From the NCBI GenBank assembly GCA_015163855.1, contig JAAOIK010000013.1:1-38042 (forward strand): a stretch of DNA of 38,042 nt, read 5' to 3'. The stretch comes from Pseudobdellovibrionaceae bacterium (GTDB taxonomy: Bacteria > Bdellovibrionota > Bdellovibrionia > Bdellovibrionales > UBA1609). The notes under the pieces are model-generated. The model had not been told where the DNA came from and searched no databases. It saw only the letters and a list, made by a program, of their open reading frames with translations. This document shows, piece by piece, positions 34,746 through 36,999 of the stretch (its first letter is position 1; each line of letters begins with the position of its first letter). Both the position numbers and the translations under genes were made by a program.

Positions 34746-35414
34746 TTGTTTGCCTTACCCAGCACTATTATTTATTTTATTAGTTTTATTGTAGCCTTAT
34801 GCAGTCTTAGTTATGAATTAATTTTATCTCAACTTTTAGCAGTGAGTTTTGGAGGAACCCTTTTTTATTACTCTGTTACAATGGGTATTTTTATGTTTTC
34901 TTTGGGCCTAGGGTCTTTGTATTATACTTATAAAAAATCAAAAAACTTAATTTCCTTACTGGTTAAAACAGAAATTATTTTAACCGCCCTTGGGCTTCTT
35001 AGCCCTTATTGGATACTATATACTAGCTCTTTTCAAAATAAAATTTACCCTATGCTTTTTTATTTTTTAATTCACTTACCCTCTATATTAATTGGTTTTT
35101 TTTCTGGCTTAGAATTACCTAACTTATTAGATCTTTCTAGTAAAAAAAATCTTTGCCTTTATTATGATTACTTAGGAATGTTTGTATCTAGTGTTTTGTT
35201 TTATGTATTAATTAAGCAATTAAACTTAATTAATATTACTTTGTTAATTACTAGCTTAAATTTATTTGTCGCCTTGTTGCTGTTATCTTTTAATAAAAAA
35301 TATTTTCATTTAGAAAAAATAATCAGCATTATTTTACTACTAGTTTTAATTTTTCATTGGATATATAGCACTAAAATAGCCACTTTATGGCAATATTTAA
35401 TTTTATTAACCTAA
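34746..35414 (+). CDS. Membrane domain of a membrane-type spermidine synthase, without catalytic part
   Basis: This 222-residue protein has about seven membrane segments. It closely follows the N-terminal half of multi-pass spermidine-synthase-like proteins: ALCSLSYELILSQLLAVSFG (about 17-36), YYSVTMGIFMFSLGLGS (about 41-57), a GFFSGLELPNLLDL segment (about 117-130) and YYDYLGMFVSSVLFYVLI (about 138-155). In those proteins a cytoplasmic aminopropyltransferase domain follows the last helix. Here the frame stops at TKIATLWQYLILLT, exactly at that junction. The start is TTG at 34746, three bases after the sufE stop. The catalytic half is seen on the opposite strand at 37072-38042. This may be one half of a split gene. 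The membrane-domain match is good; its role alone is unknown. Confidence 0.7.
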   Translation: MFALPSTIIYFISFIVALCSLSYELILSQLLAVSFGGTLFYYSVTMGIFMFSLGLGSLYYTYKKSKNLISLLVKTEIILTALGLLSPYWILYTSSFQNKIYPMLFYFLIHLPSILIGFFSGLELPNLLDLSSKKNLCLYYDYLGMFVSSVLFYVLIKQLNLINITLLITSLNLFVALLLLSFNKKYFHLEKIISIILLLVLIFHWIYSTKIATLWQYLILLT

Positions 35415-35428
35415 TTTTAATTTATATA

Positions 35429-36166
35429 TTAAAAATGAGGGTTACACCACTCGCAAAGGTAACGACCTCCCCCTACTGAATAGCGTTTATAAGGAAGCCT
35501 GCAAATATTAGGGTTGTTATAAAAGCATTGAAAATAAGGCTCGCATACACCTTTTTGAGCATTCCAAACATTTTGTAAATTTTCACAAACATAGGCCACA
35601 GATAGTTCGGTATAGCAAGAGTGTATTTTATTAGCAACATCTATGTTAACAAATAAATCTATAGGTATAGGTTTAAAACTGTATTTTAAATGTGATTTTA
35701 CTGCAATGAAAAGCTGAACCACTTTAGTTTTTAATTTTAAATTTAAATCTCTAGCCCATTGTTTGTTAGAATTATTTAATACAAACTCGCCTTGAGATAA
35801 AGAAGCATAAGGTTTTCGTTTTAATTGAATGCTAGAAATACTTAGGCCTGAGCCTATTTGCACATTGGTAGTAATTTTAGAAAGCTCTCTGTATGAAACA
35901 TTTTTTAAAACCACTGAATTACTACTTCCTTCACGATAATACTGCCCTTTCAAGGCTATATAACATTGGTCAGGCCAAGACATTTTCCTTTTAATATCTT
36001 TAATAAAGTGTGCATATAAAGTTTTGTCACGCAATTGTTTTTGTGCTTTATAAGCAAAATCTTGCCCCATGAATAAATAAAATAAAACAGTTCCAGCAAC
36101 TATGGTAAGCATGATTACCATTAACAAAGCAGAACCTTTAGAATGCTTTAGTTGCATTTCATACAT
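35429..36166 (-). CDS. Prepilin-like protein with cysteine-rich tail (second of pair)
   Basis: This 245-residue protein has a short basic leader (MYEMQLKHSK) followed by GSALLMVIMLTIVAGTVLFYLFMG (11-34), an N-terminal helix of the kind in PilX/GspK-type minor pilins. There is no Glu at position 5 of the helix, as in GspK, which caps pseudopili. The middle is a polar soluble domain. The last 65 residues are cysteine-rich: Cys184, 194, 208, 214, 222, 238 and 241, plus Cys68 earlier. Cys184-194-208-214 and the final CxxC repeat the spacing found in the upstream gene product. The start overlaps that gene by 19 bases, implying coupled synthesis. No enzyme motif is seen. I call it a minor pilin or pseudopilin by topology, not by clear homology. 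Confidence 0.65.
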   Translation of the reverse strand: MYEMQLKHSKGSALLMVIMLTIVAGTVLFYLFMGQDFAYKAQKQLRDKTLYAHFIKDIKRKMSWPDQCYIALKGQYYREGSSNSVVLKNVSYRELSKITTNVQIGSGLSISSIQLKRKPYASLSQGEFVLNNSNKQWARDLNLKLKTKVVQLFIAVKSHLKYSFKPIPIDLFVNIDVANKIHSCYTELSVAYVCENLQNVWNAQKGVCEPYFQCFYNNPNICRLPYKRYSVGGGRYLCEWCNPHF

Positions 36167-36999
36167 AAATAACTTTTAATTCGCCTTTCAACACTTCTGC
36201 TACACTTTTTGCCGCAAGACTCTCTATAATTATTTTCATAGCTACCAATAAGGGTAGGAGAAACTCCCAGAGGACAAGAATAGCCTTGTGTTATTGGGTT
36301 AACTCGAGCAGCACCGCTTTTCTTACACCGACTGCCCCTTTCGCAACGCTCTACAGTAAAAAAGCCTTTCAATAAACATCGATGCTGTGGCACACAGGAA
36401 TGAGTCGCTTGTTTATACCTTAACCCTAAGGCCGAGCAAAAATAAGGCAACTTAGTTCCTGCATAGCAAGAATCTATTTTATTATAGGGGAACTTTGTAA
36501 ACACTGGTAACTCTATATAAAAGGGAGAAAATAACTTAGAACTTAAATGCTTAAGTTTAAATTGTATTTTAATTTGGATAATATAAATTTTATAACTTAC
36601 AGATCCATCATTAAAAGAATCTGTTAAGGTTCCTGGTTTTTTTCGAATACTTAACTCTTTTATTTTCATTTTTCCTAAATTAGCACCAGATTTTAAAACT
36701 CCTTCCCAGTCTCCAAAGCCTTTATAACGAGTTAATGTTAAATTTTTCCAAACCACGCCTGGTAAATTTTTGTTAGAAAATTCTTTAGAGCAAGATGCAG
36801 TATTATACAAGTAGGTGGAAATAGCAGATTGAATATTATGAACTTCACTTTCTGTAACAAATTGCTCTTTTTGCTGAAATAATGAAGTAAATCCTGTAGC
36901 AATACTGACACTGATAATTCCCAATATAGACACTGCGATCATTAGTTCTATTAAATTAAAAGCTTTATTAGTAAGTATAGTATCTTTCATGACTAACAT
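36148..36999 (-). CDS. Prepilin-like protein with cysteine-rich tail (first of pair)
   Basis: This 283-residue protein has a type IV prepilin N-terminus: a short leader, then NKA-FNLIELMIAVSILGIIS, with cleavage expected before Phe14 and the conserved Glu at mature position 5. A globular part of about 140 residues follows, then a cysteine-rich tail with Cys178, 188, 202, 208, 219, 225, 242, 262, 266, 279 and 282 (also Cys70). The tail segment KIDSCYAG...C-x-P-x-x-x-C is matched in spacing by the next gene. The start could be ATG at 36999 or the internal ATG at 36990; neither has a clear ribosome binding site. It is a minor pilin candidate; no assembly ATPase, PilC or PilD gene is in the window. 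Confidence 0.75.
   Translation of the reverse strand: MLVMKDTILTNKAFNLIELMIAVSILGIISVSIATGFTSLFQQKEQFVTESEVHNIQSAISTYLYNTASCSKEFSNKNLPGVVWKNLTLTRYKGFGDWEGVLKSGANLGKMKIKELSIRKKPGTLTDSFNDGSVSYKIYIIQIKIQFKLKHLSSKLFSPFYIELPVFTKFPYNKIDSCYAGTKLPYFCSALGLRYKQATHSCVPQHRCLLKGFFTVERCERGSRCKKSGAARVNPITQGYSCPLGVSPTLIGSYENNYRESCGKKCSRSVERRIKSYLCMKCN

Follow-up and report, generated by a model that had tools for sequence, protein, structure and literature searches.

A paralogous pair of putative pilus-tip minor pilins in a conserved Bdellovibrionota locus, one ending in a module that is very probably a relative of the first P2 repeat of perforin-2

Two overlapping genes for prepilin-like proteins with cysteine-rich tails raise the question of what kind of pair they encode and what such tails could do on a filament. 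The genes are located on the window, the whole stretch of 38,042 nucleotides analyzed here (contig C13, 33% GC), which is part of a 1.24-Mb draft genome that is 95.5% complete (G000). Both are encoded on the minus strand. Gene A (36148-36999) codes for a minor prepilin of 283 amino acids with 12 cysteines, and gene B (35429-36166) for one of 245 amino acids with eight. An earlier, sequence-only reading had described two minor pilins that share a disulfide-type module and could form a tip complex. Homologues were sought in 141 genomes of the order and in 369 of the phylum, and our analysis is based on alignments of 39 A and 28 B homologues.

Protein A contains a prepilin domain (TIGR02532) that scores 23.8 bits and thus lies above the cut-off of 16.3, and the Pfam family N_methyl matches 34 of the 39 A homologues. 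The leader is of the GF-x3-E type; in the window, the site falls between Ala and FNLIE, with Glu at position +5, and is followed by the pilin N-terminal helix (residues 14-65; 36805-36960, minus strand). This Glu5 is kept in 34/39 A homologues and absent from all 28 B homologues. Protein B has a leader-like site between Gly and SALLM and matches no prepilin family; its status as a prepilin derives from the homology of its profile to that of A, which extends across 229 columns, those of the helix among them. In the AlphaFold2 models of both A (pLDDT 88.7, pTM 0.65, helix H16-65) and B (pLDDT 86.4, pTM 0.75), a long helix at the N-terminus packs against a domain of beta sheet. Using VIA-align, the pilin core of A could be aligned with the Streptococcus sanguinis minor pilins PilB (7ba2; Z 5.3, 90 residues, rmsd 3.1) and PilA (7o5y; Z 3.4). 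For the B model, Foldseek gave no match with E < 0.2 and the top VIA-align Z was at most 4.4, so this protein has no clear structural relative in these searches, which leaves room for the existence of one. The tails of A and B did not match any Pfam or NCBIfam family. By their sequences, A and B are minor pilins, which would be processed by a prepilin peptidase and assembled into a filament.

The cysteines are located at positions 70, 178, 188, 202, 208, 219, 225, 242, 262, 266, 279, and 282 in A, and at positions 68, 184, 194, 208, 214, 222, 238, and 241 in B. All positions given in the sequence-only reading were found in the translations, as were the pattern C-x9-C-x13-C-x5-C with a terminal CxxC in both proteins, the lead-ins KIDSCY in A and KIHSCY in B, and the overlap of 19 bases between the two genes (36148-36166, minus strand). 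The four-cysteine pattern comprises residues 178-208 of A (36376-36468, minus strand), where the cysteines are kept in the 39 homologues, and opens the framework of B, which extends from residue 184 to the CxxC at residue 241 (35444-35617, minus strand). Six further cysteines (Cys219, 225, 242, 262, and 266 of A and Cys222 of B) had been left out of that reading, and most of them build the more informative part of the tail. Across the alignments, Cys178, 188, 202, 208, 242, and 279 are invariant in A, and Cys68, 184, 194, 208, and 222 in B. The spacing C1-x9-C2 occurs in all B homologues and in about 33 of the 39 A homologues; together with C3-x5-C4 it represents the stable part of the framework, and the CxxC is also widely conserved. 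The distance between C2 and C3 is mostly 11-17 residues in A and 13-24 in B, where 17 is common. The proposed identity of spacing therefore persists in orthologues with regard to x9, x5, and CxxC, but the exact match at x13 is peculiar to this genus. Other minor pilins of the phylum have a lead-in of the form N-x-I-x-x-C-x9/10-C-x(11-15)-C as well, and hence the opening half of the framework belongs to a broader group of pilins and is not specific for this pair.

Apart from the cysteines, the two proteins had been called very different. This is correct for a pairwise comparison, but their profiles align over 229 columns (hhalign, probability 99.6%, E 1.2e-23), and the A profile itself retrieves B with an E of 9.9e-12. 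Judged by these profiles, A and B are paralogous along their length and do not merely have similar tails. A chance origin of the common spacing can be ruled out, since the framework of paralogues is inherited. When only strong scores are counted, the genomes of the order that contain A are precisely those that contain B (19 of 141), and both also occur in further Bdellovibrionota outside of it. The two genes are mostly neighbors, and many homologous pairs again overlap, by 19-28 bases. Such an overlap had been taken to suggest fixed stoichiometry, a conclusion that goes too far: it supports at most translational coupling. Scanning genome contigs with A returned the congener (Bdellovibrionales bacterium TC_Bin3) as the only match, and plasmids and phages gave no match. 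When the tail was used alone, it was found in 29/369 genomes of the phylum, and 40 of 41 matches were prepilins of this locus, with prepilin starts verified in the newly added ones. Within the phylum, we can therefore rule out that the tail is a widespread module of soluble proteins. The one exception, a weak match (6e-4), is a secreted protein of genome G091 (L196:1297-2409, minus strand) without a Pfam match. The idea of two minor pilins with a common disulfide-type module, conserved as a pair, thus stands.

Where in a filament would such a pair be placed? GspK, the most distal pseudopilin, and proteins similar to it typically lack Glu5. Because B resembles them in this respect, we propose it as the distal subunit. 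Furthermore, some homologues carry varied extra domains at the C-terminus, as expected of an exposed tip: HYDIN-type Ig domains in a B homologue of G039 (L049:7435-9189, minus strand), a DUF1554 domain in a B homologue of G218 (L133:4-2007, minus strand), and a Hint domain, above the Pfam cut-off, in A of G121. Weaker intein/Hint matches were obtained for A of G238 and B of G242. Taken together, the absence of Glu5 from 28/28 B homologues, its presence in 34/39 A homologues, and the variable fusions argue for a tip complex, as had been suggested, and we regard the tip position of the pair as likely. The A or B homologues with Hint- or intein-like ends come from three genomes (L140:8147-9658, minus strand; L132:1557-3314, plus strand; L141:3869-5734, minus strand), and these ends could possibly represent a self-cleaving or pretoxin-type terminus on a pilus-tip protein.

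The sequence-only reading knew of no described pilin module with this pattern. The tail of A does have a known relative, since it matches the P2 domain of perforin-2 (MPEG1) in both sequence and fold. In profile searches of the PDB, the A alignment matched MPEG1 ahead of any pilin (E 2.7e-8), and the tail alone matched only MPEG1 (E 6.3e-8; next match, E 0.8). Single A sequences from three genera (the window, L135, and L121) gave MPEG1 as the best match or the best non-pilin match, with E-values of 0.2, 0.23, and 0.0096, respectively. A Foldseek search with the A model returned MPEG1 for all of the top 14 chains, and the P2-domain chains reached a probability of 1.00. The corresponding E-value was modest (1.1e-3), and we therefore place the weight on the agreement between sequence and fold. 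VIA-align superimposed residues 209-283 of the A model on residues 377-466 of 6sb4 with a Z of 9.2 on the DALI scale (rmsd 2.7 A, 74 residues); the best unrelated match was the pilin one with a Z of 5.3, which concerns a different part of the model. As a control, we fixed the cysteine columns of the A profile and shuffled all other columns 300 times. The true profile scored 29.5 bits against the first repeat of mouse MPEG1 and 25.8 bits against the human one, while the shuffled profiles had a mean of 1.3 and a maximum of 7.2 bits, so that none of the 300 came near the true score. This loss indicates that the likeness is not just a matter of cysteine spacing or composition. From sequence profiles and models, we consider it very probable that the tail of A is homologous to the first repeat of P2.

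The related module comprises residues 208-283 of A (36151-36378, minus strand). Like the first repeat of P2, a MABP beta-prism (6sb1, 6sb4, 6u2j), it follows the pattern G-x-[YF]...C...C...NPxTGxxSCPxG...C-x3-C and is modeled as a repeat of three strands, the long beta hairpin of which is basic and braced by disulfides. The P2 domain of MPEG1 consists of three pseudo-symmetric repeats, the first of which carries a 45-A hairpin with two additional disulfides, an abundance of positive charge, and a hydrophobic LKIF tip (PMC6989145). It binds phosphatidylserine, cardiolipin, E. coli lipid extract, and LPS (PMC6989145; see also PMC6753088), and removal of Y427-V452 abolishes its binding to phosphatidylserine, cardiolipin, and E. 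coli lipids (PMC6989145). By chain numbering, the conserved C-x3-C should lie within this deleted segment. In contrast to MPEG1, the bacterial protein A has a single repeat instead of three, after which it ends, so that the pseudo-threefold prism is not formed; the LKIF-type tip is lacking, and the turn reads CGKKC instead. We therefore use the term P2-first-repeat-like module rather than P2 domain. Moreover, the module of A is fused to a pilin and not to a MACPF pore former: MACPF (PF01823) is absent from A and from all 141 genomes of the order.

In the A model, the hairpin strands comprise residues 247-263 and 266-282, with CGKKC (residues 262-266; 36202-36216, minus strand) at the turn. Judging from the strand boundaries and the joint loss of the two cysteines, Cys262 and Cys266 probably form a disulfide staple. 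These two residues are present or absent jointly in 38/39 A homologues, and the same is true for Cys219 and Cys225 in 35/39, as expected of disulfide partners. In homologues that have lost the hairpin pair, GKK is usually kept. Homologues differ in the net charge of the hairpin, which ranges between -4 and +5.

The sequence-only reading was silent on the surroundings of the pair, which turned out to be conserved. By iterated profiles and gene order, we identified an arrangement T-M-S-Y-Z/A-B, in which the set from T to Z is usually divergent from A-B. T is a protein of about 250 amino acids with one transmembrane segment; it was assigned by position and similar layout, and a search with the T profile found only itself. 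M (34746-35414, plus strand) is a membrane protein of about 220 amino acids with four transmembrane segments and a relative of the membrane part that forms the N-terminal half of PRK03612-type spermidine synthases (NF002956, E 1.5e-22 over residues 7-212). Iterated profiles place M and S in the same family, and the two are fused in several genomes. S, linked to A and B across the phylum, combines a membrane domain with a spermidine-synthase domain in about 530 amino acids. In the window it is cut by the end of the contig (37072-38040, minus strand; PF01564, E 2.8e-23); the complete gene of the congener codes for 531 amino acids (L056:3261-4856, plus strand). Y, about 250 amino acids long, looks secreted (signal peptide) and ends in YYP. 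It occurs in 19 of the 369 genomes of the phylum, all 19 of which have A (chance about 7e-25, ignoring phylogeny). Z is a membrane protein of about 340 amino acids that is linked to A and B, and one member matches Acyl_transf_3 below the cut-off. The genus of the window has A, B, M, and S, and a T-like gene is present in the congener. Y is absent from both the genome of the window and its congener, though both keep A and B; this absence is in keeping with the small genome of the genus. We are highly confident that A and B are paralogous pilins of a tip type that form a pair within a conserved locus, which as newly defined combines two tip pilins with a membrane spermidine-synthase-like enzyme and its membrane half, and with a secreted YYP, a single-transmembrane, and an acyltransferase-like protein.

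Spermidine synthases carry a DxxDP motif. S resembles PRK03612-type membrane spermidine synthases in its membrane domain and GGGDG-type nucleotide-binding motif. In contrast to them, it scores 192.6 bits against a curated cut-off of 472, which makes it a relative rather than an equivalog, and it is tied to prepilins. While S keeps GGGDG and LVELD, it nearly always has DFPxP at the position of DxxDP, and an aromatic residue replaces the second Asp in nearly all full-length homologues. Therefore, S is probably not a plain spermidine synthase, and its substrate probably differs.

Neither a pilus motor nor a major pilin or a T2SS core gene is part of the locus. From ORF sequences and matches to the T2SSE family, we located T4P-type genes for PilB, PilC, PilT, PilS, and a PilR-like protein on contig C43 of the same genome, T2SS genes on C7, and a Flp/Tad-type set on C41 and C43. 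Of the N_methyl-type prepilins, four belong to the T2SS-like cluster, a further one is a weak match that falls below the cut-off, and the last is A; beyond these, the N_methyl family did not detect a PilA-type major pilin. Despite its 1.24 Mb, this small genome still has T4P-, T2SS-, and Tad-type genes (C43, C7, and C41).

Modular minor pilins are already known, and A and B resemble several of them. S. sanguinis PilB and other bimodular adhesive minor pilins likewise combine a pilin with an extra C-terminal module of an adhesive type, and PilA and PilC of this organism work as an interacting pair (PMC8179133, PMC9934059), as we propose for A and B. The extra module of A differs from those of PilB-type pilins, as it is rich in disulfides and similar to P2 rather than to a VWA or lectin domain, and A and B, unlike PilA and PilC, carry one common cysteine framework. 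A second parallel is provided by the Kil/Tad tip complexes of Myxococcus (KilLMN; TadEFG-like), for which tips have also been proposed in Bdellovibrio: there, the proposed tip of a predation pilus is built from several minor pilins, which carry additional distal domains and numerous predicted disulfides (PMC12075869). A and B resemble these pilins in such domains and disulfides and in their proposed place at a tip. However, the leader of A is of the T4a/T2SS GF-x3-E type and not of the TadE/F type, and the gene neighborhood differs. The A/B locus holds no Tad gene, and a Tad/Flp locus is present elsewhere in the genome. The distal module of KilN4 has no relative in the PDB (PMC12075869), whereas that of A is related to P2 of MPEG1. 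Finally, B is similar to GspK/PilX-type tip pseudopilins in the lack of Glu5 in 28/28 homologues, but neither a sequence nor a fold match was found for it.

We propose that A and B most likely sit together at the end of a type IV-type filament, as its cap or tip, in which B would probably be the distal subunit, like GspK- and PilX-like proteins, and A, with its Glu5, probably the partner. The C-terminal 75 residues of A would fold into a disulfide-braced beta module that projects the long hairpin, with the stapled, basic CGKKC at its turn. On extension of the pilus, this hairpin would most likely touch a surface or another cell, the latter at its membrane or LPS, and S, M, Z, T, and Y would serve the maturation, modification, or display of the tip. 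For the proposal as a whole, a tip complex with a disulfide-stapled hairpin that binds target envelopes, we see the chances as evenly balanced. Because A has one repeat and lacks the LKIF tip, lipid binding is not transferable from MPEG1, and binding of a target membrane or LPS by the hairpin, suggested by analogy, seems to us plausible at somewhat less than even chances.

Four other explanations compete with this proposal. Convergence of cysteine-rich hairpins could account for the likeness to perforin-2, since both are small disulfide-rich beta structures and the alignment with A covers no more than one third of P2. But MPEG1 was the sole significant sequence match among all cysteine-rich proteins of the PDB, and the score disappeared upon shuffling of the non-cysteine columns, which makes convergence very improbable. 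If the homology is accepted, the cysteine tails might still do nothing but stabilize exposed pilins, the P2 likeness being scaffold ancestry without membrane binding and the adhesive part lying elsewhere. The varying charge and sequence of the hairpin would fit this explanation, as would the lack of conservation in A of the P2 tip residues that matter in MPEG1, and disulfide-rich tips are known from Kil/Tad systems (PMC12075869). However, GKK is usually retained at the turn even where both flanking cysteines are gone, which is beyond the needs of a scaffold, and we consider a purely stabilizing role rather unlikely.

The remaining two explanations start from the neighboring genes instead of the tail. 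A and B could be accessory pseudopilins or tip pilins that handle the secreted protein Y, which would be bound by the filament or exported with it, the hairpin of A binding Y or an outer membrane channel instead of a foreign membrane. Y is confined to genomes with A, where it belongs to the same locus, and the genome of the window has a T2SS besides its T4P and Tad genes; but precisely this genome and its congener keep A and B in the absence of Y, and the locus is devoid of T2SS core genes, so that handling of Y appears unlikely. Alternatively, the locus could serve surface modification, S, with its SAM/dcSAM fold, and Z making or attaching a group carried by the A/B tips, e.g., on the conserved lysines of the hairpin turn. 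Both genes are linked to A and B, and in S, which keeps GGGDG, the aromatic residue that replaces the second Asp of DxxDP makes a different substrate probable. However, pilin tails are periplasmic, whereas the catalytic domain of S is expected on the side of the cytosol, where SAM is found. As the acyltransferase match of Z is also below the cut-off, we regard such a modification as improbable.

In the open-access literature that we searched, we found no paper that links pilins to perforin-2/MPEG1, and prokaryotic relatives of P2 are not mentioned in one MPEG1 review and one paper on MPEG1 evolution. P2 reportedly shares hardly any sequence similarity with the other proteins known to adopt its fold, and the tail of A is a possible bacterial relative of it. 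This link provides a direct, testable hypothesis on what a Bdellovibrionota pilus tip binds. A role of A and B in predation is doubtful: given their patchy distribution (19/141 genomes of the order) and a locus with neither motor nor major pilin, they are not general predation genes. Equally tentative is the further-reaching idea that the pilus tip of a predatory phylum holds Gram-negative envelopes by a membrane-gripping hairpin homologous to that of MPEG1, and that the animal P2 domain and the bacterial tip derive from one module.

A is duplicated in tandem in L123, L126, L129, L132, L139, and L141. In second or tandem copies of A (L122:5575-6561, L123, L126, L139, and L141), the cysteine pair of the hairpin is often lost and GKK usually retained. 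In genomes with two A copies, a division of labor between tip versions is possible.
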